NCBI GenBank assembly: GCA_012839475.1
Contig: DUNG01000057.1
Location: forward strand, 1 to 64,000
DNA from: Petrimonas sp.
GTDB taxonomy: Bacteria > Bacteroidota > Bacteroidia > Bacteroidales > Dysgonomonadaceae
DNA: 64,000 bases
Direction: 5' to 3'
A program made the translations under genes and the position numbers. This document shows, piece after piece, positions 44,560 through 64,000 of this stretch (its first letter is position 1; each line of letters starts with the position of its first letter). The notes below the pieces were generated by a model. The model was not told the origin of the DNA, made no database searches, and worked only from the letters and a program-made list of their open reading frames with translations.

Positions 44560-44600
44560 CGTGACGCATGAAAATCTTTACCCCACCTACATTACATCCT

Positions 44601-47088: not shown

Positions 47089-47955
47089 TCACGTCTGCAT
47101 TCTCTTTCTATATTGCCCCGGGCTTTCGCCTGTTAATTTATTAAATAGTCGATTAAAGTATGAAACGTTATCAAAACCCAGTCCAAAGGCTATCTCCTTT
47201 ATGCTTGTATCCTCAATTAAAAGCTTGAGTTGAGCAGCTTCAATTTTTTTCCGATTAATGTATTTCCGGGGGGTGCAATGCATCTCCTTGTTGAAAAGCC
47301 GGATAAAATGGTCTTTGGTGAGGTAACAGATGGCGGCCAACTGATCAATATCTACCTGTTTGTCCAGGTTCCTATGGATATGGAGAAGGCATTTTAATAC
47401 TCGCTCTTCAAGGTGTTCTTTTTTATACGTGGCTGGAGCCAGGAATCGGGAAAATAACACGTTAACAATGCCTCGTGTCTCCATCTCGTTCGCCAGGGGG
47501 CTCTTTTTTTGTAAGGCAATGTTTTGGGCTAGCGTGGAGGAGTCGTTGTAAGTTTTTGGGTCATAGTGTTTTAATTCCCTTCCCGGGTTGATGTTAATTA
47601 ATCGTTCGATTAAAAGAAGATCAACACGTGAAGAGACTACTTCCACTGGGAAGTCAATTAGTTCGAAAATACTGAGTTCATTACCGGGATCCTCGTACAG
47701 ATGAATGTAATAAAGTTCCAATACACCGTTGCACTCGTACGAATGCTTCACGTAAGACGGGGTAAGGTAAAGGTTCCCTTCCCTTAGTTCTTGTTCGCCA
47801 TCATCACGGATTATCTTCGCTCGACCTTTTTTCACGTAATGCATCCTGATAAAGGGGCTATTGACCTCTTTCCAATTCCAGTCAGCATCGTGATAGGCAT
47901 AGCCCACGTTTAACAAAATGAAATTCTTATCCAAGCCCTTTCCCCTCATCTTCAC
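47089..47955 (-). CDS. AraC-family transcriptional regulator
   Basis: A 288-aa one-component regulator. An N-terminal cupin-like sensing domain (about 15-150; MHYVKKGRAKIIRDDGEQELREGNLYLTPS) is followed by two helix-turn-helix units at about 190-285 (VDIDQLAAICYLTKDHFIRLFNKEMHCTPRKYI; TSIKEIAFGLGFDNVSYFNRLFNKLTGESPGQYRK). It lies 145 bases upstream of the GH95 gene on the same strand and is divergent from the GH29 relic, so it probably controls a small fucose-related regulon. Confidence 0.93.
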   Translation of the reverse strand: MKMRGKGLDKNFILLNVGYAYHDADWNWKEVNSPFIRMHYVKKGRAKIIRDDGEQELREGNLYLTPSYVKHSYECNGVLELYYIHLYEDPGNELSIFELIDFPVEVVSSRVDLLLIERLININPGRELKHYDPKTYNDSSTLAQNIALQKKSPLANEMETRGIVNVLFSRFLAPATYKKEHLEERVLKCLLHIHRNLDKQVDIDQLAAICYLTKDHFIRLFNKEMHCTPRKYINRKKIEAAQLKLLIEDTSIKEIAFGLGFDNVSYFNRLFNKLTGESPGQYRKRMQT

Positions 47956-48553: not shown

Positions 48554-49360
48554 GTGGAAAACACGTTTTTGCATATGGATAACAAAGAGGAAAAGTACCG
48601 GGTTCCTAGTTTAGAAAAGGGATTATCCATACTAGATTGCCTCTCTCGCAACAATAAAGGAATGACGTTGCAAGAGATAAAGGAGGAGTTGGAATTATCG
48701 CAAACTACTGCCTATCGTATCATGAACACGATGATGCGTTTGGAATTTTTGACATATGACGAAAGGTCTAGATGCTATAAGTTATCGCTAAAATTACTGA
48801 CTTTGGGATTTCGTGCCTTGAACGAACACCAATTGATTGAAACGGTTCTACCCCATTTGCAAACACTTCGTGATCAGGTAAGAGAGACGGTCTGTTTTGG
48901 TGTAATGGGTGAAGAGAAAGGAGTTTTCATCAATCAGGCCCAAGGTTCTTATCCATTTAGCTTTACATTAGCTCCAGGAAAATCGTTTGAATTGCATTGT
49001 TCTGCCCCGGGAAAAGCTATTATGGCTTATCTACCGAATAGTGTAAGGGAAAAATATTTGTTGAACATGGATTTTCAACGCTTTAATGAACGTACCATTA
49101 CCTCTCGCGAGGATTATATGAAAGAGTTGAGAAAAATCCTCAGACTTGGCTATGCTATAGACAACGAAGAGGAACTTACTGGAGTTATTTGTATAGCTTC
49201 TCCAGTCTTTGATTACAGAGGTTACCCGTGTGGTTCGATTTGGATTTCAGGCCCCAAAGGTCGACTCACCAAAGAAGTAATCGAGAATAATGCTGTCCTG
49301 ATAAAAGAAGAAGCCAAACTTATTTCTGCCGAGCTTGGCTATATGCAAACTAAAAAATAA
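48554..49360 (+). CDS. IclR-family transcriptional regulator
   Basis: A 268-aa regulator with an N-terminal winged helix (about 17-80: VPSLEKGLSILDCLSRNNKGMTLQEIKEEL, SQTTAYRIMNTMMRLEFL) and a GAF-like effector domain (about 85-265: CFGVMGEEKGVFINQAQG, LHCSAPGKAIMAYLP, GYAIDNEEELTGVICIASPVFD). The SAPGKA.LA and D.EE...G..C.A.P motifs are diagnostic. The second Met (48575) is an alternative start. It begins the long plus-strand run to the window end with a 3-base gap to the next gene, so it almost certainly governs that run. IclR ligands are usually small organic acids or sugar acids. Confidence 0.94.
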   Translation: MENTFLHMDNKEEKYRVPSLEKGLSILDCLSRNNKGMTLQEIKEELELSQTTAYRIMNTMMRLEFLTYDERSRCYKLSLKLLTLGFRALNEHQLIETVLPHLQTLRDQVRETVCFGVMGEEKGVFINQAQGSYPFSFTLAPGKSFELHCSAPGKAIMAYLPNSVREKYLLNMDFQRFNERTITSREDYMKELRKILRLGYAIDNEEELTGVICIASPVFDYRGYPCGSIWISGPKGRLTKEVIENNAVLIKEEAKLISAELGYMQTKK

Positions 49361-49363
49361 AGA

Positions 49364-51130
49364 GTGATGATACCGCTAAGAACTAGGGCTTTTTTGTTAG
49401 GCGTGATGGCGGGTATTACCTTGTCGACTTTCGCGAATCAGGTTCCACGCTACCCAACCGGCATCGCCTTGAATTCACGAGGAGAATTGGTAATACCTGA
49501 GAAAGGCCTAAAACGTGTGGCCGTTTATTCTCCGGATGGTCGGCAATTGATCAGGTCTTACGCTATGGATGAGGAGCCAACGGGAATTGCTGTTGAAGGG
49601 AACAGACTATATGTTACCACTTTTGAAACTAAAGGGATACTCAAGGTATTGAACTTGCCTGATGGGAAAGAGGTGGCATCCGTGCGTGTGGGCTCCGGAG
49701 CCCGCGCACCTGTTATTAATAAAGTATTAGATAAGTTATACGTGTGCAACCAGTTCCAGAACACGATATCTGAAGTGGATTTGTCGACAAACAGGGTGAC
49801 CCGCACCGTACCCGTCCTTCGGGAACCGACCTCGGCAGCAATCAGCAAGGATGGAAAACTCCTGTTTGTCACGAATTTTCTTCCGGCTCAACGAGCAGAC
49901 GTGGATCACGTCTCCGCGTGCGTATCCGTCATCGACCTCAACAGTTTCACCAAGATCAAAGATATTCGGTTGGCCAATGGGAGTAACGCGTTACGGGGTG
50001 TTTGTATAACTCCCGATGGAAAGTACGCTTATGTATCTCACAACTTGGGACGCTATACGGTACCCACTTCACAACTGCAACAGGGTTGGATGAACACGAG
50101 TGCTTTCAGCGTGATTGACGTGGGGCAACTGCAGTTTTTAGGAACGGTAATCGTGGATGAACCCGAGCGAGGGGCAGCTGGCATTTGGAGCATAGCCTGC
50201 AACGAAGAAAAGATTTTCATTTCACATTCAGGGACACATGAAATAAGCGTGATACGCCACAAAGAGATGCTTAATAAGTTTTTAGCGTTTCCTGATAAAT
50301 CGGTTTTAGAGTATGACTTGACCTTTTTGTACGGCTTGCGTGAGCGCATACCTTTACAAGGTAATGGTCCGAGAGAGATATTACTGGCAGATAACCGTTT
50401 GTTCGTACCCACCTACTTTTCTGATACCTTAAACGTGATGGACACGCGAACCCATGCATTGTCACAGGCCGACCTGAACCCGGGGCGTGTAGAGAGCTCT
50501 ATCGATAAAGGTGAAAAATATTTTCATGATGCGACGCTCTGTTTTCAGCACTGGCAGAGCTGTATTGGTTGCCATCCGGAAGCGCGGGCAGATGGCATGA
50601 ATTGGGACTTGATGAATGACGGTATAGGAAATCCAAAAAACTGCAAAAGCTTAATTTTCAGCCATGTTACACCCCCTAACATGATTTCTGGTATACGTGA
50701 TTCGGCTGCTCGGGCCGTTCGCGCAGGGTACAAGTTCATCCAGTTTTTCGAGATACCAGAAGAAGATGCTCAGTGTGTAGACGAATATTTAATGTCTTTG
50801 CAACCCGTACCGAGCCCTTATCTTGTTAATAACGAGTTATCTGAAAAAGCGAAAGCAGGTAAAAAGGTGTTCGACAGGTTGAAGTGTGGCGAATGTCACA
50901 GTGGTATTTATTACACGGATATGAAGATGTACCGAATCGGTGAAGATATCGAGTTTGAAAAAGGTTGGGATACACCAACGCTACGTGAGGTCTGGCGCAC
51001 GGCACCCTACCTTTTTGATGGCCGGGCGGCCACGATGAGAGATGTATTCGAAGTGCATGGTCATGGCATCAACAAGAAGGTTTCCAGTGAAGATATCGAG
51101 GCATTAACGGAATATGTGAACTCTTTATGA
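49364..51130 (+). CDS. Exported beta-propeller/di-heme cytochrome c protein
   Basis: A 588-aa periplasmic or surface protein (signal peptide about 1-25). Residues about 28-370 form YncE/YVTN-type beta-propeller repeats (RYPTGIALNSRGELVIPEKG, GIAVEGNRLYVTTFETKG, KLYVCNQFQNTISEVDLSTN, LLFVTNFLPA). The C-terminal part is cytochrome-c-peroxidase/MauG-like with two heme sites: CIGCH (400-404) and CGECH (508-512), then TPTLREVWRTAPYLFDGRAATM and LTEYVNSL. It likely transfers electrons during oxidation or reduction of the imported compound. It overlaps the next start codon by four bases (ATGA), giving translational coupling. Confidence 0.88.
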   Translation: MMIPLRTRAFLLGVMAGITLSTFANQVPRYPTGIALNSRGELVIPEKGLKRVAVYSPDGRQLIRSYAMDEEPTGIAVEGNRLYVTTFETKGILKVLNLPDGKEVASVRVGSGARAPVINKVLDKLYVCNQFQNTISEVDLSTNRVTRTVPVLREPTSAAISKDGKLLFVTNFLPAQRADVDHVSACVSVIDLNSFTKIKDIRLANGSNALRGVCITPDGKYAYVSHNLGRYTVPTSQLQQGWMNTSAFSVIDVGQLQFLGTVIVDEPERGAAGIWSIACNEEKIFISHSGTHEISVIRHKEMLNKFLAFPDKSVLEYDLTFLYGLRERIPLQGNGPREILLADNRLFVPTYFSDTLNVMDTRTHALSQADLNPGRVESSIDKGEKYFHDATLCFQHWQSCIGCHPEARADGMNWDLMNDGIGNPKNCKSLIFSHVTPPNMISGIRDSAARAVRAGYKFIQFFEIPEEDAQCVDEYLMSLQPVPSPYLVNNELSEKAKAGKKVFDRLKCGECHSGIYYTDMKMYRIGEDIEFEKGWDTPTLREVWRTAPYLFDGRAATMRDVFEVHGHGINKKVSSEDIEALTEYVNSL

Positions 51131-52218
51131 ATTACTGCGATAAAATAGACTACACTATATATACATCAGAAGTGGGATCTTTTGACTGTATGGTCAATGA
51201 ATTGATGGTTCAACTGCCTGATGATAGGTCTATACTTCGCCTTATTGTATTTGGGGCTCCTGTAAATAACGTGCAGTTCGTAGAACAACGTGAACATCTA
51301 CGTGCCTGTTGCCACGAGAAATTTAGTGATAAGATGCCGGCGCTGACCTACGTCCCTCAACCCCCCTTGGAAGGTGGGCTGGTCATGGAGGTACATAGTT
51401 ACATGCCCGGAGAAAAGGATATTGTACGTTTCAGCGAACATGAAGGATATTCATATGTAATCGTTGAAAACGAATGTGCTCGTTTACTTTATGCCGGAGG
51501 TTTTCAAGCAGATTTGTCAGTGTGTATACTCGATCAATCGAGGGAGGTTTTCCGGTTAATAGGGGAGCTTTTGGGAAAAGAGAAATTTCCAATTGCTTCA
51601 ATTACTCGTCAATGGAATTACATTGAACGGATTACAGCGTGGGATGGTAAAAATCAGCATTATCAGATGTTCAACAACGCCCGTGGTGAGTTTTACTCGT
51701 TGGATCGATGGGAAAATGGCTATCCCGCGGCAACTGGTATTGGAACGATGGTGGGCGGTGTATCGGTAGATATTGATGCCGTGATTTTTAAATCTAAATG
51801 TTGCTTCGCTACACCTATTGATAATAAGCTACAGGTGGCCGCTCATGAATATTCAAGCGATGTCTTAAAGGAGGCGGGTGGCGAAAAGGCAACCCCCAAG
51901 TTCGAAAGGGCTAAAAGTATGACCTTTGGAGACCGCAGGTTGGTGTATGTGTCTGGTACCGCGGCTATTAGAGGAGAGGAGAGTCTGAAGGGGGTTGGGG
52001 TTGAGCGTCAAATGAATGTCACCATAGATAATATTTCGCAATTGATAGGCAATGACAGGATACGTATGTTGAGGGTATACTTGAAAAACCCGAAAGATTA
52101 TGAAACAGTGAGACGCCATTTGTCATCTCGCGAGCAATCGGTACCCATTTCTTACCTATGGGCCGATGTTTGTAGGGACGAATTGCTGATAGAAGTTGAA
52201 GGTATTGCCATGGGGTGA
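51127..52218 (+). CDS. RidA/chorismatase-like cytosolic protein
   Basis: A 363-aa protein with no signal peptide. The centre (ASITRQWNYIERITAWDGKNQHYQMFNNARGEFY, then GYPAATGIGTMVGG) matches the fold of FkbO/Hyg5-type chorismatases and YjgF/RidA trimers, and the C-terminal third (YVSGTAAIRGEES, NVTIDNISQLIG, MLRVYLKNPKDYETVRRHL) is again RidA-like. It therefore looks like a tandem RidA fold. The activity is not evident; hydrolysis of an enol ether, enamine or enol pyruvate-type intermediate is a family-based possibility. It is coupled by overlap to the exported cytochrome gene, so their functions are probably linked. Confidence 0.7.
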   Translation: MNYCDKIDYTIYTSEVGSFDCMVNELMVQLPDDRSILRLIVFGAPVNNVQFVEQREHLRACCHEKFSDKMPALTYVPQPPLEGGLVMEVHSYMPGEKDIVRFSEHEGYSYVIVENECARLLYAGGFQADLSVCILDQSREVFRLIGELLGKEKFPIASITRQWNYIERITAWDGKNQHYQMFNNARGEFYSLDRWENGYPAATGIGTMVGGVSVDIDAVIFKSKCCFATPIDNKLQVAAHEYSSDVLKEAGGEKATPKFERAKSMTFGDRRLVYVSGTAAIRGEESLKGVGVERQMNVTIDNISQLIGNDRIRMLRVYLKNPKDYETVRRHLSSREQSVPISYLWADVCRDELLIEVEGIAMG

Positions 52219-52320
52219 TGCTCGAATACAATTCATGATGGCTCCAATTTAGGGCTTTCTGGCTTTTGAAGATGCTTAGTTGGATTGATTAAGGAGACGA
52301 TAATTTTTAATATTAGAACA

Positions 52321-53031
52321 ATGATGAAAAAGAGTGTTACGTGGTTTTTTTTGGCAATGATCGCATTTGGATCGCTCGTTGCTTGTACAGGAAAAACTGG
52401 TAAGGTTCAAGGAAATGAAAATACCAGCAGTATTAACGAACAAAAAAATGATGAAATGATGAAGTTCAGTAAGAAGTTTACAAATGCCGATTTTTATCGA
52501 GACGGTCTATTCCAACAGGAAGTAGCCATGCAAGCAATGAAAGAGATGCTTGCGTTTTACAATGTCCCATTTACTGATTTGATGGAGAAGGATATGTGGG
52601 TAACGGATCATGGTCTGGGTGACTTTGAGAATGTAGGTATGGGAGGTATTTTTTGGGTGAACGATCCTGAATACAAGTATTTCGCACATACTATCTACTT
52701 GTTGCCCGGACAGATGATACCAGAGCATGCTCATGTGGCAACCGCTAATTTCTCACCAAAGCATGAGTCATGGATGGTCACTCATGGGTGGGTCTATAAT
52801 TTTTCCGAAGTAGGTACCGAGACACCCGATGCTCCTTCAATTCCGCCCAAGCATGGCCCTATCAAGAGCAAGAATTTCGTTGTTCAAGAGGTAGGCGATC
52901 TTCTTAGGCTGAAGGAATTGGAGACATACCATTTTATGATGGCTGGCCCTGAGGGTGCTATCGTGGAGGAATGGGCAAGTTACCACGATGGTGCTGGTTT
53001 GAGGTTTACCAATCAAAATGCAGGGCTATAA
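52321..53031 (+). CDS. Cupin-fold lipoprotein
   Basis: From the chosen start (MMKKSVTWFFLAM) the protein has 236 residues with a lipobox SLVAC (Cys22); an upstream ATG at 52285 would spoil the signal. The conserved part reads IYLLPGQMIPEHAHV (metal-binding His pair), KHESWMVTHGWVYNFSEVG and LETYHFMMAGPEGAIVEEWASYHDG, a cupin barrel that could hold a metal and act on a sugar or polyol; it recalls lyxose-isomerase-like cupins without a firm match. It is exported, unlike most isomerases of that type. It sits between the RidA-like gene and the large heme protein. Confidence 0.7.
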   Translation: MMKKSVTWFFLAMIAFGSLVACTGKTGKVQGNENTSSINEQKNDEMMKFSKKFTNADFYRDGLFQQEVAMQAMKEMLAFYNVPFTDLMEKDMWVTDHGLGDFENVGMGGIFWVNDPEYKYFAHTIYLLPGQMIPEHAHVATANFSPKHESWMVTHGWVYNFSEVGTETPDAPSIPPKHGPIKSKNFVVQEVGDLLRLKELETYHFMMAGPEGAIVEEWASYHDGAGLRFTNQNAGL

Positions 53032-53046
53032 GAATGTGCAAATCAT

Positions 53047-56000
53047 TTGACCAAACATCTTTGTCTCATGTTACCAAAAAAAGTCCTTTTGAAAGGGTGT
53101 TTCCTAGTGCTGGGAATAATTCCCGTGTTCGCGGCTCCTAAGGAAAGAAAGGCTGAACCTGCTATCAAAGTATACCCAAAAGCTATGGTACATTTTGTAG
53201 AGCCTGAGGCCATGCCGTCTTTTACAAGTTTTTTGGAGTCTATATCAACAACTGCGATCTTAGCCGAGGAAGAGCAATTGATTAAGAGCCTTTTGAGGCA
53301 ATTAAAGGACAACTCCTATTATGAAGAAAGGTTACAAATCGCCAATAAGGAGCAAAGCTTGGAGGCTAAGAAAAGACAGTACTCACAGTTGATAGATGAA
53401 GTGTCCAAGGTGTTGGAGATCCAGCATGCTTTGTCTTGGTTGAACTTTTCTTCGGTAGAACTCGCATACAACGATATGAACAAATCGTCAACGTTTGACG
53501 CGGGAAAGTATACCCCCATGTTGAGGGAGCTTTCAGTTTTGGCAAACAAGGGGTTTGACGAGATGTACAGGGGAGATGTTCAAGCCCTGTCAGATGCTAA
53601 ACGTGCACTGGAATTAAAACGTTCTATCCTTCTTGGTAACCCTCTGCTTGATCCCGATAAGATTGTAGCATCTCGTTTTATATTAAAAGATGGTGCACGG
53701 AGGGCGATGGCTCCTCAATTAGGGACGCAGATGAATAACTGGAGCAACCAAGAGTCTGCCCCACGCGGGGGGTTTGATGCTGAAATTGTAGAGTTGTCGA
53801 ATCTTCGCGGGGAGATCAAGCTCCGCCAGGTTCATAAACCGGGTAACGGTTCATCCATTGCTGACCTGCGAATGCATTGGGATGCAGATCGTGTGATGTT
53901 CTCCCAACTTCAAGCCGATAGGCGCTGGAATGTTTTCGAGGTGAAACTTGATGGAAGTGGTTATCAACCTCTGATTGATAACGATGAGCCAGACCTCGAG
54001 TTTTATGATGGTACCTATTTGCCGGATGGCCGGATTTTGGCCGTTTCCAACATCGGTTACCACGGAGTACCTTGCGTGAGTGGTAGTGATGCAGTTGGGA
54101 ACCTGGTGCTTTATGACCCCGAAAACAGAAATCTCCGTCGTTTAACGTTCGACCAAGATGCCAATTGGAACCCAGTTATCATGAACAATGGTCGTGTGAT
54201 GTACACGCGTTGGGAATACACGGACTTGACGCATTACTATTCGCGTATCGTGATGCACATGAATCCCGATGGGACTGAGAATAAGGCGCTGTATGGAAGC
54301 GGGGCCATGTTTCCCAATAGCGTGTTCGACGTGCAGCCCATTCCGGGTCAAGCTTCCTCTTTCGTGGGGATCATTTCCGGCCATCATGGTATTGCCCGCT
54401 CCGGACGTCTCATAGTTTTTGATCCGGCCAAGGGGCGCAAGAGCGTATCGGGTATGGTGCAGGAAATACCGCACCGTGATCGCCCCATCGAGGAGTTAAT
54501 CAAAGATGAGTTGGTTAACGGGGTTTGGCCCCAGTTCATAAAGCCCACCGTGTTGAATGATAAGTACTTCTTGGTTTCAGCTAAACTAACCCCTAACTCC
54601 TTGTGGGGAATTTACCTCGTGGACGTGTTCGATAATGTGACCTGTATATGGGAAGCGGAAGGCGAAGGCTTCATAAGCCCTATCCTGGTGAAGAAAACAG
54701 ATATTCCTCCTTTGATTCCCGATCGTGTGAAGCTAGATCAGAAAGAGGCAACCTTTTTCATTCAAGATATCTATGAGGGGGAAGGGCTCCGTGGAATTCC
54801 CCGGGGGACAGTTAAAGAACTTCGTCTGCATGCCTACGAATACGCGTACGTGCAAACTCAGTCTGACCATAATTGGCACGGCATTCAGTCTGGTTGGGAC
54901 ATAAAGCGCATATTAGGGACCGTACCGGTAGAAGAAGATGGATCAGTTATATTCACGGCCCCGGCTAACACGCCCATCTCTATACAGCCTATCGATGAGG
55001 AGGGGGTTGCTGTCCAATGGATGCGTAGTTGGGTAACAGGGCAACCGGGTGAAGTGGTCTCTTGCGTCGGTTGTCATGAGAATCAGAATCAGATTCCGAT
55101 ACCCAAACGAGTGATCGCCTCGCAAAAGAGTCCTAGTAAACTGATTCCTCCCGAGGGAGGTGTGCGTTCTTTCACCTTTGATCTCGAGATACAACCCATC
55201 CTTGATCGTGCCTGTATTGCTTGCCACGATGGGGAACAAGCGTTTGACCTACGAGGTGGGAAGAAAGATGAACGCGGGTATGGGACTTCGTATCTAAACT
55301 TCCATCCTTATATCCATCGCCAGGGTGGTGAAGGTGACATGGTTGTATTGCAGCCTTATGAGTATCATCCCAATACAAGTGAGCTTGTCCGTATGCTTAA
55401 GCGCGGGCATTATAACGTGGAGCTTACGGACAAAGAGTGGCGCACTTTGTACACATGGATTGACTACAATGCACCCGACAAAGGTTATTTTAATGCCAAT
55501 GTCTTGACCAATCATCCTTACCAGGGATTCGATCAGATAGAACGCCGAATAGAATTGACGAACAAATATGGTAACGGTGCCGGTGTGGATTGGAAGAAAG
55601 AGCTTTCCGACTACGCGGCTTACCTGAAGGGGAAAGGGGAGATCGTGCCGGAGATGCCCAAGAAAAGTAAGGAGGTGAAAATTAAAAACTGGACGGTTAA
55701 AGGTTGGCCATTTGATGCAGAGGATGCCAGAGCGAAGCAAATATCGACCGGTGAAGTAAGGAAAGTTGTAGAATTGGCCCCGGGGGTAAATATCGCTTTT
55801 GTACGTATTCCCGCCGGAGAATTCGTCATGGGAAGCTATCAAGGGCCTATGGACACGCAGCCCACCTCTAAGGTTAAGATAGACAAGCCTTTCTGGATGG
55901 CCGAACTGGAAACTACCAACGAGCAGTTCAACGTGATATTCCCAGATCATGACAGTCGGTACGTAGACCAGCAATGGAAAGATCATGTTGTACCTGGCTA

Positions 56001-56586
56001 CCCTGCCAATGAACCAGATCAGCCCGTTATCCGCGTCAGTTATAACGATGCCATGGAGTTTTGCAAACAGGTAAGTGAAAGAACCGGACTGAATATTACC
56101 CTGCCGACGGAAGCTCAATGGGAGTGGGCTTGTCGAGCCGGGAGCGATAGTGACTTCTGGTATGGTGACCTTCATGCCGATTTTGGCGATAAAGATAACT
56201 TGGCGGACAGAACGACATTACTGTTTGCCGTTTCTGGAGTGGATCCGCAACCCATGCAACCCGATAACCCGTGGTATCCATATTACACCTTCCTTCCTAA
56301 AGAGGAGAGCGTGGATGACGGGAATTTGGTTCAGATCGGCGGCAAGCAGTATGAGGCCAATCCATTCGGATTGTATTGTATGCATGGTAACGTGGCTGAA
56401 TGGACACGATCGGACTATTTACCCTATCCATACATGGAGAAAAGCAAAGAAAAGGGTGAATACAAGGTGGTTCGCGGTGGATCATATATTGAAAGACCCA
56501 AGTTCTCCACCTCTTATTCGCGAAAAGGATTCTACCCGTACCAACGTGTATTCAATGTTGGTTTCCGGGTGATCATTGAAGAATAA
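53047..56586 (+). CDS. HzsA-like two-heme protein with SUMF1-fold C-terminus
   Basis: A 1179-aa exported protein (signal near LLKGCFLVLGIIPVFA; start may be MLPKKV at 53068). The order is: helical N-terminal part (about 60-215), a beta-propeller of the TolB/hydrazine-synthase-alpha type (about 255-640; DLRMHWDADRVMFSQLQADRRWNVFEV), two c-type heme sites CVGCH (673-677) and CIACH (723-727), then a SUMF1/formylglycine-enzyme-like domain (about 920-1179; IPAGEFVMGS, WMAELETTNEQF, LPTEAQWEWACRAG, CMHGNVAEWTRSDY, VVRGGSYIERPKFSTSYSRKG). The C-terminal motif lacks both catalytic cysteines of FGE, so it is not a sulfatase activator. This architecture is more familiar from Planctomycetes and Verrucomicrobia. 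The reaction is unknown. Confidence 0.82.
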   Translation: MTKHLCLMLPKKVLLKGCFLVLGIIPVFAAPKERKAEPAIKVYPKAMVHFVEPEAMPSFTSFLESISTTAILAEEEQLIKSLLRQLKDNSYYEERLQIANKEQSLEAKKRQYSQLIDEVSKVLEIQHALSWLNFSSVELAYNDMNKSSTFDAGKYTPMLRELSVLANKGFDEMYRGDVQALSDAKRALELKRSILLGNPLLDPDKIVASRFILKDGARRAMAPQLGTQMNNWSNQESAPRGGFDAEIVELSNLRGEIKLRQVHKPGNGSSIADLRMHWDADRVMFSQLQADRRWNVFEVKLDGSGYQPLIDNDEPDLEFYDGTYLPDGRILAVSNIGYHGVPCVSGSDAVGNLVLYDPENRNLRRLTFDQDANWNPVIMNNGRVMYTRWEYTDLTHYYSRIVMHMNPDGTENKALYGSGAMFPNSVFDVQPIPGQASSFVGIISGHHGIARSGRLIVFDPAKGRKSVSGMVQEIPHRDRPIEELIKDELVNGVWPQFIKPTVLNDKYFLVSAKLTPNSLWGIYLVDVFDNVTCIWEAEGEGFISPILVKKTDIPPLIPDRVKLDQKEATFFIQDIYEGEGLRGIPRGTVKELRLHAYEYAYVQTQSDHNWHGIQSGWDIKRILGTVPVEEDGSVIFTAPANTPISIQPIDEEGVAVQWMRSWVTGQPGEVVSCVGCHENQNQIPIPKRVIASQKSPSKLIPPEGGVRSFTFDLEIQPILDRACIACHDGEQAFDLRGGKKDERGYGTSYLNFHPYIHRQGGEGDMVVLQPYEYHPNTSELVRMLKRGHYNVELTDKEWRTLYTWIDYNAPDKGYFNANVLTNHPYQGFDQIERRIELTNKYGNGAGVDWKKELSDYAAYLKGKGEIVPEMPKKSKEVKIKNWTVKGWPFDAEDARAKQISTGEVRKVVELAPGVNIAFVRIPAGEFVMGSYQGPMDTQPTSKVKIDKPFWMAELETTNEQFNVIFPDHDSRYVDQQWKDHVVPGYPANEPDQPVIRVSYNDAMEFCKQVSERTGLNITLPTEAQWEWACRAGSDSDFWYGDLHADFGDKDNLADRTTLLFAVSGVDPQPMQPDNPWYPYYTFLPKEESVDDGNLVQIGGKQYEANPFGLYCMHGNVAEWTRSDYLPYPYMEKSKEKGEYKVVRGGSYIERPKFSTSYSRKGFYPYQRVFNVGFRVIIEE

Positions 56587-56652
56587 AGTCTGTTATTTAG
56601 CCGCTTGATTGTGGCCTGCGGTCGGACGAAATGTGACCTATACAGGTTACGT

Positions 56653-56673
56653 TAATCATTAATCATTAATCAT
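56653..56673. repeat. Three tandem TAATCAT heptamers
   Basis: Three perfect head-to-tail copies of a 7-base unit lie 16 bases before the start of the small VOC-like gene, in the 102-base gap after the heme-protein gene. They may be slippage or spaced binding sites for a regulator. Confidence 0.6.
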
Positions 56674-56688
56674 TTAACAAAATCAAAA

Positions 56689-57003
56689 ATGAGAACATTG
56701 CATCATTTTGGTATCATTACCGATACCATTCCGGAAGGTGCCTTTTACAATGATGACTTAGGTGTTTGGTTAACAGACATCAGTAAAAGCCCAAACAAAA
56801 TTGAGTTTTTGAAATTCGAGCCAGGAAGCTGTATGCCCGAGCTGGTTCAAAAACAGGCGCATATAGCCTATGTTGTTCAATCATTAGAAGAAGAGCTAAA
56901 GGGGAAAAAGGTGATTTTTGGACCTATGGCTCTTGACGAACATCTGTCAATTGCATTCATCGAGGAAGAAGGTATTTCTGTCGAATTGATGGAGATGAAG
57001 TGA
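56689..57003 (+). CDS. Small VOC/glyoxalase-like protein
   Basis: A 104-aa cytosolic protein. It starts LHHFGIITDTI with a histidine at the usual first metal position of vicinal-oxygen-chelate proteins and ends ISVELMEMK with a glutamate at the usual last one; HIAYVVQSLEEEL (about 62-74) supplies the second beta-alpha unit. Such proteins isomerise or epimerise small dicarbonyl or acyl substrates. Placed 27 bases before dhaK in a kinase-thiolase series, it stands where the Lsr pathway has the small isomerase LsrG, though the fold is different. Function is inferred. Confidence 0.65.
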   Translation: MRTLHHFGIITDTIPEGAFYNDDLGVWLTDISKSPNKIEFLKFEPGSCMPELVQKQAHIAYVVQSLEEELKGKKVIFGPMALDEHLSIAFIEEEGISVELMEMK

Positions 57004-57030
57004 AACACATTAATGTAAGGAGTGAAAGAT

Positions 57031-58038
57031 ATGCAAACTAAATTCATTAATAACCCGGAAAACATCACGAAAGAATTGTTGGAGGGTTTGGTGTTAGCCT
57101 ACCCGGAACATGTAAAATTGGCTGCTGAGAATATCGTTGTTAGAGCGAATCCGAAAGATGAAGATAAGGTGGCAATCGTAACCCTGGGTGGATCCGGTCA
57201 TGAACCGGCCTTGAGTGGCTTCGTTGGTGATGGTATGCTCGACTGTTCCGTGGTGGGTGATATTTTTGCCGCACCCGGTGCACAACGCCTACTTCAGGCA
57301 TTGCGGCTGATGCAACGAAAGGCTGGAATATTGCTTGTGGTACTCAACCATTCGGGCGATGTTTTGAGTGCCAACATGGCATGTCAGCTGGCTGAGCGTG
57401 AGGGTATAAAAGTGGCTAAAGTGATGACGCACGATGACATCAGCGCCGGGATTGGAGCCGATTTGAATGATCGTCGCGGACTGGCTGGATGTGTACCTTT
57501 GTACAAAATCTTAGGTGCTGCCGCCGATGAAGGCAAATCGTTGGACGAACTGGTTGAGATTGCCGAGCGCTATAATCAACAGGTCGCTACATTGGCAGTA
57601 GCCATGAAGTCTTGTTCCCATCCACAAAATGGGGCAATCATAACTGACCTCCCGGATGGAATCATGGAGATAGGTATGGGGCAACATGGTGAAGGTGGTG
57701 GTACTCGGAAAGCACTGGTCTCGGCTGACGATACAGCAGCGGAGATGGTTGGGCTTTTGTGCCAGCAACTTAAGCCCGAGAAGGGAGACAAAATGATGCT
57801 GATTATCAACGGTGTTGGGGCGACAACACATATGGAGTTGAATATCGTGTTTCGTAAGGCATTCTATGAGCTTGAGGCACGTGGATTGCAAGTCTGCGTG
57901 AGTCGCATACAAGAGATCCTGACCGTTCAGGAACAAGCGGGCTTCCAAATGATTTTGGGCATATTGGATGATGATCACATAGAGTACCTAAAGAACAAGC
58001 CTTCGAATACCCCCTATTGGACTAACCTTGGGAGTTAA
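57031..58038 (+). CDS. DhaK-type dihydroxyacetone kinase subunit
   Basis: The substrate-binding subunit of a dihydroxyacetone-type kinase (335 aa from MQTKFINNPENIT). TLGGSGHEPALSGFVGDGMLD and NHSGDVLSAN shape the site, and the histidine that binds the ketone covalently is H219 (from this start) in MGQHGEGGGTRK. DhaK proteins phosphorylate the hydroxymethyl group of ketoses such as dihydroxyacetone or erythrulose. DhaL follows after 9 bases. No PTS-type DhaM is present, so the phosphate donor may be ATP bound by DhaL. An upstream ATG would add three residues. Confidence 0.92.
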   Translation: MQTKFINNPENITKELLEGLVLAYPEHVKLAAENIVVRANPKDEDKVAIVTLGGSGHEPALSGFVGDGMLDCSVVGDIFAAPGAQRLLQALRLMQRKAGILLVVLNHSGDVLSANMACQLAEREGIKVAKVMTHDDISAGIGADLNDRRGLAGCVPLYKILGAAADEGKSLDELVEIAERYNQQVATLAVAMKSCSHPQNGAIITDLPDGIMEIGMGQHGEGGGTRKALVSADDTAAEMVGLLCQQLKPEKGDKMMLIINGVGATTHMELNIVFRKAFYELEARGLQVCVSRIQEILTVQEQAGFQMILGILDDDHIEYLKNKPSNTPYWTNLGS

Positions 58039-58047
58039 TTTCGAGAC

Positions 58048-58680
58048 ATGAAAAAAGAATTGACCATTGACGATTTCAAATCTATGCTGGAGCATGCCCT
58101 AAAGAATATAAGTGAACGGGTTGACGAGTTTTCCAGCTTGGATGCGGTTATAGGTGATGGTGATCATGGGCAGGCAATTTATACGGCCATGTTGACCGCG
58201 GTCAATACGGCTAGACAAGGTGTAGAGTTTAAATCGATGCTTAACGACATAGGAATGAACATGATGCTTCAGGTAAGCGGATCAACCAGTACTTTATTAG
58301 GGGCTTTCTTTTTGGGTATGGGTGATTGCGTTTCCGGCACGAGACTGGATGCGGCTGAAGTTCGTGGAATGTTCGCCGGGGCTTTAGCTAACTTGCAGAA
58401 ACAGACACAAGCCAAGCCTGGGGATAAAACTTTGATGGATGCAGTGGTGCCAGCCGTGGAAGCGATGCAGCTTTGTAAATCTGAAGATATTGTTGAGGTG
58501 ATGCAGGCTGGTGCTGATGCTGCTTTAGCTGGTGCAGCCGCTACCACGCGGATGAAGGCCAATTACGGCAGAGCTCGTAACTATGGTGAGCGATCGGTTG
58601 GTTTTGCCGATAGCGGTGCCACATCATGGAGTTGTATACTCCAGTCCTTTGTCGAAGCATTAAAGACAATGGCTGATTAA
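58048..58680 (+). CDS. DhaL-type kinase nucleotide-binding subunit
   Basis: A 210-aa all-helical nucleotide-binding subunit. The Mg-binding aspartates D32, D37 and D39 in LDAVIGDGDHG have the DhaL spacing; GSTSTLLGAFFLGMG and KPGDKTLMDAVVPAVEA complete the nucleotide pocket and the TRMKANYGRARNYGERSVGFADSGATS ending is typical. It forms a kinase with the preceding DhaK. Separate dhaK/dhaL genes without dhaM in the window leave the phosphate source open. Confidence 0.93.
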   Translation: MKKELTIDDFKSMLEHALKNISERVDEFSSLDAVIGDGDHGQAIYTAMLTAVNTARQGVEFKSMLNDIGMNMMLQVSGSTSTLLGAFFLGMGDCVSGTRLDAAEVRGMFAGALANLQKQTQAKPGDKTLMDAVVPAVEAMQLCKSEDIVEVMQAGADAALAGAAATTRMKANYGRARNYGERSVGFADSGATSWSCILQSFVEALKTMAD

Positions 58681-58717
58681 GACATAACGCACAGGTTGTT
58701 AATAATTAAAAATCATT

Positions 58718-59593
58718 ATGGCTGATATGGATGGATATATTGAAGCTACCTCCTTTGGGTTAAAAGAGGTCGCTTCATATGCTGATTTTAAAGTAAAAGG
58801 TGCCTCCAACTTGGGTTGGGGAATGAAAGACAGGTTATCCCGAATTTTCAACCCCCTTACGGGACGTACCGTGATGCTGGCATTTGACCACGGGTTTATT
58901 ATGGGACCAACCTCTGGGTTGGGACGTATTGACTTGGAGATTGTCCCTTTGGTACAATATGCTGATTGCTTGATGTGTACCAGGGGAATTCTCCAATCTT
59001 CGATTCCTGCAAATGTGAATAAACCGGTTTGCTTGCGTTTTGATGCCGGTTCAACCATATTGACGGAACTGAATCGGAACGTGCTTATTGACGTGGAAGA
59101 GGCGATTCGTTGCAATGCTTCAGCCATGGCAGTGATGTTCTCAGCAGGGGATGGCGAACGGGAGTCAATCACGGCCGCGAACCTGGTGAAAGCGGTAGAT
59201 GCAGGAAATCGCTATGGTATACCCGTAATGGGGGTTACTGCCGTTGGTAAGGAAATGGTTCGTGATGCCCGTTACTTTGCACTGGCTTCGCGGGTATGCG
59301 CTGAAAATGGTGCCACCATTGTTAAAACATACTATTGCGAAGGTTTTGAAAAAGTTACCTCCACATGTCCCGTGCCTATAGTGATTGCCGGAGGTAAGAA
59401 ATTGCCTGAGAAGGAAGCGTTAGAGTTATGCTATAAGGCAGTTAATGAAGGAGCTGCTGGAGTTGATATGGGGCGTAATGTCTTCCAAAGTGAGTCACCC
59501 GCTTCCATGATTCAGGCAGTTTACGCGGTGGTGCATAATGGACTAACACCCGGTCAAGGGTTTGAATTGTTTCAAGAGCTTAAAAACAAATAG
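58718..59593 (+). CDS. LsrF-like thiolase/aldolase
   Basis: A 291-aa class I aldolase-fold protein of the DeoC/FbaB/LsrF group, very close to LsrF in sequence: RLSRIFNPLTGRTVMLAFDHG, LMCTRGIL, GVTAVGKEMVRDARYFALA, IVIAGGKKLPE and GAAGVDMGRNVFQS. The Schiff-base lysine is K203 in GATIVKTYYCEGFE; length and position agree with E. coli LsrF as I remember it (291 aa, Lys203). LsrF transfers an acetyl group of 3-hydroxy-5-phosphonooxypentane-2,4-dione to CoA, leaving DHAP. Following a DhaK/DhaL kinase, it probably cleaves a phosphorylated ketone from this pathway. No lsrK, lsrG or lsrABC genes are present. Confidence 0.88.
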   Translation: MADMDGYIEATSFGLKEVASYADFKVKGASNLGWGMKDRLSRIFNPLTGRTVMLAFDHGFIMGPTSGLGRIDLEIVPLVQYADCLMCTRGILQSSIPANVNKPVCLRFDAGSTILTELNRNVLIDVEEAIRCNASAMAVMFSAGDGERESITAANLVKAVDAGNRYGIPVMGVTAVGKEMVRDARYFALASRVCAENGATIVKTYYCEGFEKVTSTCPVPIVIAGGKKLPEKEALELCYKAVNEGAAGVDMGRNVFQSESPASMIQAVYAVVHNGLTPGQGFELFQELKNK

Positions 59594-59739
59594 GCTGTAA
59601 GAGACCGTGCATGTTAGTTTGTATGGTAAATAAGTAAAATATGATATTATCGGAACAACAAAATTCTTGGAGAGCTACTTTTCAATAATTTGAAATTTTC
59701 TGAAAAGGTTTGATTATTAATCTTTTAAATAAAAAAGGG

Positions 59740-62700
59740 ATGAAAAAAAGACATTCATTATTAAAATGTACAATGCTGTTGTTCGCGTTCGCGTGGATGA
59801 TACCCCTGGGGACATTTGCTCAGACCATTACGGTGAGAGGTCAGGTTGTAGATTCACAGTACGAACCTGTTCCCGGGGCAACTATTGTTGTTGTAGGTAC
59901 TACTAAAGGTGTAATAACAGACGTGGATGGTCGTTACTCCATTGAGGTTCAGCCAACCGATCAGCTTCAGTTCTCTTTTTTAGGGCTGCAAACTCAAACA
60001 ATTAATGTTAACAACAGGACAACGTTGAATGTTACACTTGAAGAGCAGGCTGAATTGCTGGATGAAGTTACCGTGGTAGCTTTTGCAAAACAGAGGAAAG
60101 AGAGTGTGATAAGTTCCATTACTACTGTAAACACTAAAGATTTAAAAGTACCAAGTAGTAACCTCACTACCGCGTTAGCAGGACGAGTGGCCGGGTTAAT
60201 TTCTTATCAGCGAAGCGGGGAACCAGGAAGAGATAACGCGGATTTCTTTGTGAGGGGCGTTACAACGTTTGGATACAAGAAAGATCCACTGATATTGCTA
60301 GATAACAATGAGGTTAGTGCCGCGGATCTAGCCAGAATGCAACCCGATGATATTGCAACCTTTTCAATTATGAAGGATGCTACTGCAACGGCTTTGTATG
60401 GCTCAAGGGGAGCAAACGGGGTAATATTGATAACGACGAAGGAAGGTAGAGAAGGAAAGGCAACGATGAACATACGGTATGAAAACTCCGTGTCTACCCC
60501 AACTCACAGGGTTGAGCTTGCAGATCCAATAACCTATATGAAACTTCATAATGAGGCTGTAAGAACTAGGAACCCGTTAGGAGTTACATTGTATTCTCAA
60601 AACAAAATTGATAATACGATCGCGGGAGGGAACCCGTATGTTTATCCCGCCAATGATTGGTACAAAACCCTTTTTAATGATTACGCTCACAATCAGCGCT
60701 TTAATTTTAACCTCAGTGGTGGTGGTAAGGTAACTCGTTATTATTTGGCTGGAACGTTGAATAATGACAAGGGGGTGTTAAAAGTTGACCCGATAAATAA
60801 TTTTAACAACAATATTGATTTAAAACGGTATATGTTACGGGCAAACGTGAACATCAATGTAACTCCTACGACTGAAGTAGCCGTTAGACTACAAGGTACA
60901 TTCGATGATTATACAGGTCCGTTGCAGGGTGGTGATGCGATGTACTCGCTTGTAATGAGATCTAATCCAGCGCTTTTTCCACCGTATTTCAAACCGGATA
61001 AGGCCAACGAATTCACCAAGCACATTCTGTACGGTAATTATGATCAAGGACAATTTGTTAACCCGTATGCCGAAATGACAAAAGGGTATCGAGATTACAC
61101 AACATCGCAGATGTTCGCCCAAGTGGAATTAATGCAAAATCTTGATTTCATAACCGAAGGTTTGTCATTAAGGGGTATGTTTAACACCAACCGATATTCC
61201 TATTACGAGGTAAGTCGTTTTTTCAATCCTTTCTTTTATAATGTTGGCAGGTATATTAAAAAAACGGACGAGTACGTGTTAAACGTGATCAATGAACAAA
61301 CGGGTAGAGAATACTTAGACTATTCGGAAGGACAAAAAGATGTGACATCAAGTACTTACTTTGAAGGTGCCCTTAGCTGGGAGCGGGTGTATAATGATGA
61401 TCATGCCGTTAGCGCGTTATTGGTGGGGACCATGAGAGAGTCCATACAAGCGAATGCCGGGGATTTGCAGCAATCCCTCCCTCACAGGAATTTAGGATTG
61501 GCCGGTCGATTCACCTACGCTTACGCGTCTCGATATTTTACCGAGTTAAACTTCGGGTATAATGGATCTGAGCGTTTTTCCAAAAAGGAAAGGTTTGGTT
61601 TTTTCCCATCCATTGGATTGGGATGGATCGTGTCCAATGAAAATTTTTGGGGTGATCGGTTAAAGGAGACGATTAATATGTTGAAATTTAAAGCTACCTA
61701 TGGATTTGTTGGAAACGATGAGATTGGAAGCCCTACCGACCGCTTTTTCTATTTATCGAATGTTAATATGAATAATGACGAAAAGGGGTCTTCTTTTGGT
61801 ACGTACGGGAACAGTGGGGGAAGATTTTTGAGCGGTATTTCGATCTCGCGCTATTCAAACGATTTAATCTCATGGGAGACCGCTGAAAAAACAAACCTTG
61901 GAATAGAGTTGGGGCTTTGGGAAAAAATCACACTTCAAGCCGATGTGTTTAAAGAAAACCGGACAAACATCCTGATGAATCGTGCGGCGATTCCTGCAAC
62001 AATGGGATTACAAGCCCCTATCAGCGCTAATGTTGGAAAAGCTAGGAGTGAAGGGTTTGATATGTCTATTAACTATAATCATGTTATCAGCCAGTCACTT
62101 TGGGTAACGGCGCTGGCTAACTTCACTTACGCGACCAGCGCGTTTACTGTTTATGAAGAGCCTGATTATAGCAGTATGCCGTGGTTGTCACACGTGGGGC
62201 AATCTCTTTCACAAAATCAAGGTTATGTTGCCGAACGGCTATTTGTTGATGAAGATGAGGTGAGAAATTCACCCTTGCAATTCGGTGATTATCGCGCGGG
62301 GGACATTAAATACAAGGATATAAACGGAGACGGGAAAATTTCTGATTTAGACAAGGTCTTTATAGGTTATCCGCAAAGCCCTGAAATTGTTTATGGGTTC
62401 GGGGTTTCGATGGGGTACAAAAATTTTGACCTGTCCTGTTTTTTCCAGGGACTTGCAAGAGAATCATTCTGGATAGATCCAACCGCCACAGCGCCCTTTA
62501 TCGATAGGCAAAATGCTCTGTTGAAAGCTTATGCCGATAGCCATTGGTCAGAAGCCAATAGAGACTTATATGCTTTGTGGCCACGATTATCTGAAAAGAT
62601 TGTTGAGAATAATGTTCAGACATCAACTTGGTTTATGCGTGACGGATCATTTTTGAGGTTGAAATCACTGGAATTAGGCTATTCTATACCAAGACAAACT

Positions 62701-62859
62701 TTATCCGCTGTAAAAATAAATAACCTGAGGATATACCTTAGTGGAACCAACCTCCTTACATTCAGCAAATTCAAGTTATGGGACCCTGAAATGGGTGGAA
62801 ATGGATTGGGTTATCCTATTCAAATGGTATTTAATTTAGGCTTGCAAACAACTTTTTAA
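59740..62859 (+). CDS. SusC-like TonB-dependent transporter
   Basis: A 1039-aa SusC-type outer-membrane transporter from the chosen start MKKRHSLLKCTMLLFAFAW; an upstream ATG would add ten residues before the signal peptide. A carboxypeptidase-regulatory-like domain (about 35-115; GATIVVVGTTKGVITDVDGRYSI) leads to a plug (about 120-235, GVILITTKEG) and barrel. There is no STN domain, so control is more likely by the IclR protein than by a sigma/FecR pair. It follows the lsrF-like gene after 146 bases in the same orientation and should import the substrate of that pathway. Confidence 0.93.
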   Translation: MKKRHSLLKCTMLLFAFAWMIPLGTFAQTITVRGQVVDSQYEPVPGATIVVVGTTKGVITDVDGRYSIEVQPTDQLQFSFLGLQTQTINVNNRTTLNVTLEEQAELLDEVTVVAFAKQRKESVISSITTVNTKDLKVPSSNLTTALAGRVAGLISYQRSGEPGRDNADFFVRGVTTFGYKKDPLILLDNNEVSAADLARMQPDDIATFSIMKDATATALYGSRGANGVILITTKEGREGKATMNIRYENSVSTPTHRVELADPITYMKLHNEAVRTRNPLGVTLYSQNKIDNTIAGGNPYVYPANDWYKTLFNDYAHNQRFNFNLSGGGKVTRYYLAGTLNNDKGVLKVDPINNFNNNIDLKRYMLRANVNINVTPTTEVAVRLQGTFDDYTGPLQGGDAMYSLVMRSNPALFPPYFKPDKANEFTKHILYGNYDQGQFVNPYAEMTKGYRDYTTSQMFAQVELMQNLDFITEGLSLRGMFNTNRYSYYEVSRFFNPFFYNVGRYIKKTDEYVLNVINEQTGREYLDYSEGQKDVTSSTYFEGALSWERVYNDDHAVSALLVGTMRESIQANAGDLQQSLPHRNLGLAGRFTYAYASRYFTELNFGYNGSERFSKKERFGFFPSIGLGWIVSNENFWGDRLKETINMLKFKATYGFVGNDEIGSPTDRFFYLSNVNMNNDEKGSSFGTYGNSGGRFLSGISISRYSNDLISWETAEKTNLGIELGLWEKITLQADVFKENRTNILMNRAAIPATMGLQAPISANVGKARSEGFDMSINYNHVISQSLWVTALANFTYATSAFTVYEEPDYSSMPWLSHVGQSLSQNQGYVAERLFVDEDEVRNSPLQFGDYRAGDIKYKDINGDGKISDLDKVFIGYPQSPEIVYGFGVSMGYKNFDLSCFFQGLARESFWIDPTATAPFIDRQNALLKAYADSHWSEANRDLYALWPRLSEKIVENNVQTSTWFMRDGSFLRLKSLELGYSIPRQTLSAVKINNLRIYLSGTNLLTFSKFKLWDPEMGGNGLGYPIQMVFNLGLQTTF

Positions 62860-62871
62860 ATAATATTCCTT

Positions 62872-64000
62872 ATGAAAAAAATAATATATACACTTTTTAT
62901 AATTATCGGGGTTGGAATGATATCCTGTAGCTATTTGGATGTCGTTCCAGATAACGTGGCAACAATTGAATACGCCTTTAGAAACAGGGCCTCTACTGAG
63001 AGATTCCTGTATACTTGTTATGGTTACTTACCCCGTGAAGGTGATGTTTCATGGGATGTTGCCATGAGCGGGGGCGACGATACCTGGACCCATTATTTCA
63101 TTACATGGAGCTCCCGCGACATTGCAAATGCCAGGCAAAATGCAACCAATCCATATGTGAATTTTTGGAATGGCGGGCGAGGCGCAGACGTGAATTTGTG
63201 GCAAGGGATAAGGGATTGCAACATATTCCTTGAAAACATCAATAGCGTGGTAGATATCCCCGATTACGAAAAAGAGAGGTGGAGCGCTGAAGTCAAATTT
63301 CTGAAAGCCTATTATCATTTCTACCTGTTCAGAATGTATGGACCAATACCCATTATGGATACCAACTTACCCGTTTCAGCGGATGTCGATGAGGTCAAAG
63401 TATACCGTGAACCCGTTGACTCCGTTGTCACGTATATCTCTGACCTGTTGTTAGAGGCCGCAAACGAATTACCTGATGAGCGAGAAGTAATTGAAGGTAC
63501 AGAAGCAGGAAGGGCTAGCAATTTAACTGCCATGAGCGTAAGGGCGCAGGTACTCGTGTTTTGGGCAAGTCCTCTGTTTAATGGGAATACCAATTATGCC
63601 AGTATGGTTGATAATAGGGGGATCTGTCTGTTTCCACAAACCGTGGATGATAATAAGTGGGTCATTGCCGCTGAAGCATGTAAAGAGGCTATCGATTTAT
63701 GCCATGAACAAGGGAAAGAGTTGTATGACATTGTTGATCCACAAGCGATGACGGCCCCAGAGCCATTCTGGGTTCAAACAACCTATCGTCAAGCCATTTG
63801 CGACAGATGGAACAAAGAGTTAATATGGGGAGGGACCAATCACAATTGTAGCGAATTATCACGACAGGCTCAAGCCAAAATAATGCGGTTGGCAGCAGAA
63901 CACACCTCTATTCGATCAGAGTGGGGGCCAACTATCAAAATAGTGGAACAATACTATTCCAAGAACGGTGTACCAATAGATGAAGATAAGGATTGGTTAA
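62872..64000 (+). CDS. SusD/RagB-like lipoprotein (cut by window end)
   Basis: Starts 12 bases after the susC stop with MKKIIYTLFIIIGVGMISC, a lipobox with Cys19, followed by SYLDVVPDN, the SusD start. WSAEVKFLKAYYHFYLFRMYGPIPIMD and SVRAQVLVFWASPLFNGN are family helices. About 376 codons are open to the window end, so the C-terminal third lies outside. It partners the preceding SusC. Confidence 0.93.
   Translation, partial: MKKIIYTLFIIIGVGMISCSYLDVVPDNVATIEYAFRNRASTERFLYTCYGYLPREGDVSWDVAMSGGDDTWTHYFITWSSRDIANARQNATNPYVNFWNGGRGADVNLWQGIRDCNIFLENINSVVDIPDYEKERWSAEVKFLKAYYHFYLFRMYGPIPIMDTNLPVSADVDEVKVYREPVDSVVTYISDLLLEAANELPDEREVIEGTEAGRASNLTAMSVRAQVLVFWASPLFNGNTNYASMVDNRGICLFPQTVDDNKWVIAAEACKEAIDLCHEQGKELYDIVDPQAMTAPEPFWVQTTYRQAICDRWNKELIWGGTNHNCSELSRQAQAKIMRLAAEHTSIRSEWGPTIKIVEQYYSKNGVPIDEDKDWL

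Follow-up and report, generated by a model that had tools for sequence, protein, structure and literature searches.

The window analysed here makes up the first 64000 of the 72527 bases of contig DUNG01000057.1 in a 3.39 Mb Petrimonas sp. assembly (GCA_012839475.1; 61 contigs, 99.5% complete). Near its end it carries a group of genes in which two homologues of hydrazine synthase (HZS) subunits stand beside both subunits of a dihydroxyacetone kinase, an LsrF-family thiolase and a relative of D-lyxose isomerase. Other Bacteroidota and members of two further phyla have the same set, and its grouping is more than chance. It is quite possible, though we would not yet call it probable, that this core (48554-59593) works as a single catabolic module on a keto-sugar or a small hydroxy-diketone, ending in dihydroxyacetone phosphate (DHAP) and an acyl-CoA. 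A sequence-only reading of this DNA had seen in it an undescribed catabolic system that took in a SusC/SusD pair and had no glycoside hydrolase (GH). A conserved, catabolic-looking module with exported redox parts and cytosolic kinase and thiolase parts has stood up to our analysis, whereas the membership of SusC/SusD and the absence of glycosidases have not.

HZS homologues outside anammox bacteria are already in print. A broader HZS-like family with other substrates was proposed from hzs-like genes (PMC10732223, 2023), and non-anammox homologues from several phyla were placed in clades I-IV, with Bacteroidota in the beta-gamma tree (PMC12758564, 2025). The window genes resemble those described in the available text of both papers in that an HzsA-like gene lies beside a fused HzsB-HzsC-like (HzsBC-like) gene and that HZS key residues are missing, whereas no DhaKL, LsrF, isomerase, chorismatase or FGE partner is named there. 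The system does appear to be undescribed: we found no report of HZS homologues with DhaKL, LsrF, a VOC protein and a lyxose-isomerase-like cupin, and neither this partnership nor its presence in cultured gut species appears anywhere in the open literature searched.

A core gene set shared by three phyla

The conserved core consists of HzsBC-like, chorismatase-like, cupin, HzsA-like, VOC, DhaK, DhaL and LsrF genes, often behind an IclR-type regulator, a relative of which was present in 10/29 named loci selected for this check. Our counts for named loci rest on the best 80 of 566 loci confirmed when named genomes were scanned with an HzsA profile. They were taken from tblastn, as longest open reading frame (ORF) calls often took the wrong strand in GC-rich loci, and the gene-set counts kept proteins of 0.75-1.6 times the length found in the window. 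HzsBC was present in 30 of the 80 loci; all eight core genes were found in 18 of these 30, and the seven other than the chorismatase in 19. Carriers include Parabacteroides, Bacteroides clarus, B. cellulosilyticus, Rikenella, Sediminicola and metagenome-assembled genomes (MAGs) of Phycisphaerae and Hydrogenedentes. The module is common to some gut bacteria and to some distantly related environmental bacteria, some of the MAGs being, judging by their titles, not from guts. All 19 core loci show one of three gene orders, with VOC-DhaK-DhaL-LsrF uninterrupted by any of the twelve genes that we tracked. A Mal s 1-like gene accompanies 12/19 of them and a ResB-CcsB cytochrome c assembly gene 11/19; in the window's own genome cytochrome c assembly genes lie elsewhere. 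Between-gene distance correlations of 0.76-0.96, calculated without a species-tree control, are not taken as proof.

Among 393 genomes of the window's order, its own included, HzsBC was found in 27, DhaK in 17 and LsrF in 11, one of the LsrF matches (45%) containing an internal stop. Ten genomes from seven families have LsrF at an identity of at least 67%, the same ten have DhaK at at least 67%, and HzsBC is present in 10/10. The hypergeometric probabilities, 5e-20 for close LsrF with close DhaK and 4e-13 for close LsrF with HzsBC, are uncorrected for kinship, and the identity limits (67%, and 68% below) were picked after viewing the lists. Without identity limits, HzsBC (E <= 1e-20) was in 10/11 LsrF genomes and 12/17 DhaK genomes of the order. 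Nine LsrF genomes other than the window's have HzsBC either on the same fetched piece (six) or with a contig break between the two (G112, G214, G363).

The phylum of the Phycisphaerae record (L048) gave LsrF-type matches (E <= 1e-60) in 62 of 372 genomes and HzsBC (E <= 1e-100) in 25; HzsBC was present in 7/8 genomes with LsrF at at least 68% versus 1/54 of the other LsrF genomes. It lies on the LsrF contig in G417, G443 and G701, and G738 has no HzsBC. Pieces around 20 of the 62 LsrF genes were fetched and 18 examined (L215 and L221, under 4600 bases, were excluded). The six with a close LsrF carried DhaK, DhaL and the cupin in 6/6, VOC in four and HzsA or HzsBC in three; no other module gene was found on the 12 pieces with a less similar LsrF.

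Heme proteins related to hydrazine synthase

The HzsBC-like family profile matches two subunits of hydrazine synthase, 5c2v_B (E=9e-39) and 5c2v_C (E=6.1e-36), and an AlphaFold2 model of the HzsA-like protein (29 sequences, mean pLDDT 82.1) has 5c2v_A as its best Foldseek match in the PDB (E=1.3e-22, TM 0.59 by target). As in HzsABC, there are four CXXCH motifs in total: two were found in 76/76 HzsA-like proteins (>900 aa) and two in 28/28 HzsBC-like proteins (>540 aa) of the named loci. MauG and di-heme peroxidases are relatives of the HZS gamma subunit. Unlike HZS, the window family has a C-terminal FGE domain, and some relatives also have an N-terminal NPCBM domain.

The heme proteins are probably not hydrazine makers, because HZS key residues are missing. 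The window heme motif CVGCHENQN has at CXXCH+4, the position of HZS alpha-Tyr591, an Asn that is nearly invariant in 29 relatives (the profile alignment ends just short of this position). Neither gamma-Cys165 nor gamma-Asp168 is conserved: the aligned positions, which lie in a region with gaps, are both Ala in the family profile. Tyr591 is the ligand of heme alpha-I of HZS according to the available text of PMC12607021, and roles of the key residues are also treated in that of PMC12758564. The NCBIfam hydrazine synthase cut-offs are missed by far (79.8 of 1250 bits for beta-gamma, 54.8 of 800 bits for alpha), and on these low scores, together with the missing residues, we reject a true hydrazine synthase. 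An invariant His 788 adjoins the column aligned with alpha-His772 in one alignment, from which heme alpha-II could be bis-His.

FGE proteins have two active-site cysteines after RGGS. These are missing from the FGE domain of the window copy (RGGSYIERPKFSTS), which rules out an FGE-type activation of sulfatases. The NPCBM carbohydrate-binding domain, found at the HzsA N-terminus in 3/5 relatives scanned, points to sugars. According to the available text of PMC12758564, none of its top structure matches for HZS alpha has another experimentally confirmed function. Because 24 relatives of the same genus match HzsA in the FGE domain only, the window copy was probably gained horizontally. Another genome of the order (G035; 2.2 Mb, 61% complete) has five HzsA-like genes (L004, L011-L014), of which one adjoins an IclR gene and another an HzsB-like gene.

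Kinase, thiolase and putative isomerases

The LsrF protein is well over its curated equivalog cut-off (Table 1) and shares 53% of 286 aligned residues with E. coli LsrF; Lys203, which we take to be the Schiff-base lysine of LsrF, is aligned (KTYY). Enzymes of this type use CoA to split a phosphorylated beta-diketone, with DHAP and an acyl-CoA as products. In the alignments with PDB 3ct4 and 2btd, DhaK and DhaL are complete and full length, and the substrate-binding His and the D-x-D-H-G motif align with those of known DhaK and DhaL, where we assume them to have these roles. DhaK binds hydroxyketones as a covalent hemiaminal. Both subunits are shared with the DhaKL(M) dihydroxyacetone kinases, whereas no DhaM-like EIIA (PF03610) was found in the window's genome (0/1; control rings 5/14 positive), which rules out a DhaKLM of the phosphotransferase-system type.

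Compared with the E. coli Lsr route (LsrK, LsrG, LsrF), the module shares an LsrF homologue and a logic of kinase, isomerase and thiolase, but has DhaKL for LsrK, VOC or cupin for LsrG, an IclR-type regulator and exported heme proteins. LsrK, LsrG, LsrB/ACD and LsrR were not seen in the run; the rest of the genome was not searched for them.

The cupin is a relative of D-lyxose isomerase in sequence and in fold, with a profile match to 7nzo (E=5.8e-22) and a fold match to 7nzp (E=3e-14, TMt 0.83), and its activity as an aldose-ketose isomerase is putative. Residues H148, H150, E161 and H216, which we read as a 3-His-1-Glu metal site, are invariant in 24/24 relatives (24 of 25 were used; L021, with stops inside the coordinates chosen for it, was excluded). 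Fold and metal-site residues are those of D-lyxose isomerase (7nzo, 2y0o); the lipoprotein-like signal, Tat-like in some relatives by eye, is not. The VOC protein has a putative metal quartet (H6, E39, H58, E99) that is invariant in 22/22. Pfam gave weak or chance matches for both families, those to Glyoxalase being weak in 4/22 VOC relatives (best E 0.019). Export signals, read by eye, are present on the HzsA-like protein, the HzsBC-like protein and the cupin, and none was seen by eye on the other core proteins.

The chorismatase-like protein and a second cluster type

Although the chorismatase-like protein stays under its family cut-off (Table 1), residues R161, W163, Y179, R186, S276, G277, D347, C349, R350, E356 and E358 are invariant in 19/19 and common to 5ag3; we take them to be the active-site framework of chorismatases, with catalytic roles. 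A DAHP synthase-like gene lies beside the operon in three Bacteroidales records (L028:13505-14263, L032:13417-14166, L033:17089-17841).

Distant HzsBC matches (L147-L154, 24-27%) include a second HZS-like cluster type. L150 brings together an FG-GAP/UnbV protein, an HzsA-like protein, an HzsBC-like protein with three CXXCH, a Rid protein, two Peripla_BP proteins and a DAHP synthase. This Rid protein has weak chorismatase similarity, and the DAHP synthase scores 436.4 bits versus a cut-off of 335. Loci like L150, by tblastn or gene order, are L147, L148, L151, L152 and L153 (L148 and L152 by gene size and order), and 6/8 distant loci have a DAHP synthase match. Judging from these matches, two distant HZS-like cluster types have a putative aromatic-pathway link in common. 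The L150-type cluster matches clade III as described in the available text of PMC12758564: an FG-GAP gene lies upstream, two genes encode solute-binding proteins and there is one additional heme motif; Rid and DAHP synthase genes are unnamed in that text, and 'chorism' and 'aldolase' are absent from its main text.

A possible pathway and its rivals

Clustering, co-occurrence, gene identities and invariant residues are what has been shown for the module. In the pathway that we infer, together with its substrate, its order of steps and its use of ATP, the exported HzsA- and HzsBC-like proteins would form a c-type heme complex that oxidises the substrate, a sugar, outside the cytosol, and the exported lyxose-isomerase-like cupin would convert the aldose and ketose forms of the substrate into each other; a 2,4-diketose (R-CO-CHOH-CO-CH2OH) would result. 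This diketose would be tautomerised or epimerised in the cytosol by the VOC protein, DhaKL would phosphorylate its dihydroxyacetone-like end with ATP, and LsrF, using CoA, would split the phosphorylated beta-diketone to yield DHAP and an acyl-CoA; the chorismatase-like protein would be an accessory. The presumed target end of DhaK, CO-CH2OH, is the end that LsrF needs, and a ketose-making isomerase with an oxidation giving a second keto group would supply the substrate of such a route. The whole would follow the LsrK-LsrG-LsrF logic of autoinducer-2 (AI-2) breakdown, with another kinase, another isomerase and a heme oxidation in front. If R is CH3, the acyl-CoA would be acetyl-CoA; a 6-deoxyhexose would yield lactoyl-CoA and would fit the local fucosidases, and no result favours one sugar.

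Several observations weigh against this pathway. Sugar breakdown does not explain the chorismatase-like gene or the DAHP synthase-like gene (3/19 core loci). DhaKL/LsrF are missing in 11/30 HzsBC loci; some of these contigs break off early, but the flanks of L022, L040 and L041 are long. The order VOC-DhaK-DhaL-LsrF is broken in L082 (Akkermansiaceae), where there is no HzsBC match, and an FG-GAP gene stands between LsrF and DhaL in L213. The window copy has none of the NPCBM, ResB-CcsB and Mal s 1-like parts found among its relatives. Of the 17 genomes in the order with a best HzsBC match of at least 46%, only 10 have LsrF, and in the phylum of L048 HzsBC lies on another contig than LsrF in 4/7 positive genomes (G465, G569, G584, G616). 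Finally, a conserved transporter or substrate enzyme was not seen in the flanks examined.

Alternatively, the module could scavenge AI-2, that is, 4,5-dihydroxypentane-2,3-dione (DPD), with DhaKL for LsrK, VOC or cupin for LsrG, LsrF as the last step and the heme proteins handling a form of DPD. We consider this unlikely, despite an LsrF that passes the curated cut-off of AI-2 thiolases and HzsBC of the module type in 10/11 LsrF genomes of the window's order. A search for LuxS in the window's own genome found none (0/1), so that any AI-2 would be foreign, and AI-2 quenching was proposed for a gut-associated lsrF homologue of Bacteroidetes in the available text of PMC6084841. However, DPD needs no exported lyxose-isomerase-like enzyme, NPCBM domains or four-heme complex, the module is also in MAGs whose titles do not indicate guts, and no Lsr transporter, LsrK or LsrG was seen in the run, the genome at large not having been searched for them.

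A biosynthetic cluster seems to us more doubtful still. Here the chorismatase would make a hydroxybenzoate, DhaKL and LsrF would provide C3 units or condense them, and tailoring of the product, for instance a secreted redox mediator, would fall to the heme complex. The invariant chorismatase signature would fit, and so would the DAHP synthase-like genes adjoining the cluster in L028, L032 and L033 and those of the distant loci, where L150 pairs one with a Rid protein. Yet L020 has the seven other core genes and no chorismatase, no activation or export enzymes were noticed, and LsrF-type chemistry is, in the known case, degradative.

It is very improbable that the heme complex does nitrogen chemistry on NO or hydroxylamine, with the sugar genes only providing electrons: homology to HzsA, HzsB and HzsC extends over most of the length, but there is no Tyr at the alpha-Tyr591 place and neither gamma residue is conserved. 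As to unrelated genes lying together by chance in one genome, the run past LsrF (SusC/SusD, GH29) is indeed not conserved with the core, but for the core itself this hardly credible reading is already contradicted by the full set in three phyla (Bacteroidota, Phycisphaerae, Hydrogenedentes) in permuted order, partial sets in Verrucomicrobia (DhaK, DhaL, LsrF and HzsA only, in L049 and L052) and tight co-occurrence.

Returning to the catabolic pathway, a wider and rather doubtful hypothesis can be built on it: non-anammox HZS homologues would be periplasmic sugar (ketose) oxidases, and hydrazine synthase would have arisen from a carbohydrate-oxidising heme complex still working in gut Bacteroidales and Planctomycetota, where it would feed a CoA-dependent cleavage of diketoses to DHAP and acyl-CoA. 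The origin of hydrazine synthase is still open. The module ties HZS homologues to soluble, assayable enzymes (DhaKL, LsrF and the lyxose-isomerase-like protein) in cultured gut strains, so that the chemistry of non-anammox HZS relatives becomes testable. In addition, the gut association of a Bacteroidetes lsrF homologue (PMC6084841) may mark this operon, if the same protein was meant.

Layout and surroundings of the gene run

All eleven co-directional genes of the sequence-only reading were recovered on the + strand (Table 1), with intergenic distances of -4 to 116 bases. Pfam and NCBIfam agree with its gene identities overall; the RidA/chorismatase-like protein is now described as FkbO/Hyg5 chorismatase-like, the propeller/di-heme protein becomes an HzsB-HzsC-like fusion and the cupin a D-lyxose-isomerase-like protein.

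Table 1. Genes of the run, in window coordinates.
Feature	Coordinates	Strand	Evidence
IclR-family regulator	48554..49360	+	Pfam IclR_C 134 bits
HzsB-HzsC-like fusion: beta-propeller and MauG-like di-heme domain, 2 CXXCH	49364..51130	+	Pfam/NCBIfam, family profile
FkbO/Hyg5 chorismatase-like protein, RidA-type C-terminal half	51127..52218	+	TIGR04444 103.5 bits, cut-off 325; PDB 5ag3, 4bps
D-lyxose-isomerase-like cupin, putative exported lipoprotein	52285..53031	+	profile and fold; no significant Pfam match
HzsA-like protein, 2 CXXCH, C-terminal FGE/PvdO-like domain, 1179 residues	53047..56586	+	PF18582, PF03781
Small VOC-like protein, putative metal-dependent isomerase	56689..57003	+	weak Glyoxalase matches, invariant residues
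DhaK	57022..58038	+	Pfam Dak1 324.5 bits; PDB 3ct4
DhaL	58048..58680	+	Pfam Dak2 126 bits; PDB 2btd
LsrF-family thiolase/aldolase	58718..59593	+	NF006081 428.9 bits, cut-off 297
SusC-like TonB-dependent receptor, outside conserved module	59710..62859	+	
SusD-like lipoprotein, 5' part, outside conserved module	62872..64000 (gene end contig 64788)	+	NF033071 27 bits, cut-off 725

The SusC/SusD pair is present in the run as had been described, but the window SusC and SusD have matches in 0/19 core loci (tblastn, flanks <=10 kb), which rules them out as a conserved part of the module. In the LsrF-SusC gap (59594-59709) no + strand terminator-like site was listed, and a promoter-like site starts at 59690. 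Promoter-like sites number 36 versus 22.1 in shuffles (standard deviation 4.8) and terminator-like sites 15 versus 10.2 (standard deviation 3.2), a slight excess for the latter; neither is enough to fix transcript ends.

The absence of a glycoside hydrolase was only apparent, because the window ends before a GH29. Beyond SusD, the same-strand run continues with a DUF4959/DUF5126/DUF5000 lipoprotein, a DUF4998 lipoprotein, this GH29 alpha-L-fucosidase and a second HzsA-FGE gene, and the contig ends at 72527; upstream of the run (43144-47955) lie a sulfatase and a GH95 fucosidase. The run thus sits in glycan-utilisation surroundings. Between the sulfatase/GH95 genes and IclR there is a minus-strand regulator-like gene, AraC-type by eye. 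Neither this GH29 nor the GH95 has a match in the 19 core loci (0/19, same search), so they are not core. Fucosidases, a sulfatase, GH88, GH78 and a 3-keto-disaccharide hydrolase lie near some module copies, and no recurrent transporter was seen in the few flanking ORFs examined (Pfam and ORF lists, not exhaustive). The 3-keto-disaccharide hydrolase (PF06439; L212:7341-8027), encoded downstream of HzsBC in one genome from the phylum of L048, hints at oxidised-sugar chemistry.

The second HzsA-FGE gene (contig 68689-72015; L002:8690-12016) adjoins the GH29 fucosidase and shares 42% identity with the first copy. Among the best 80 of 566 loci, Bacteroides cutis (L076) has the nearest relative of this second gene, at 65%.

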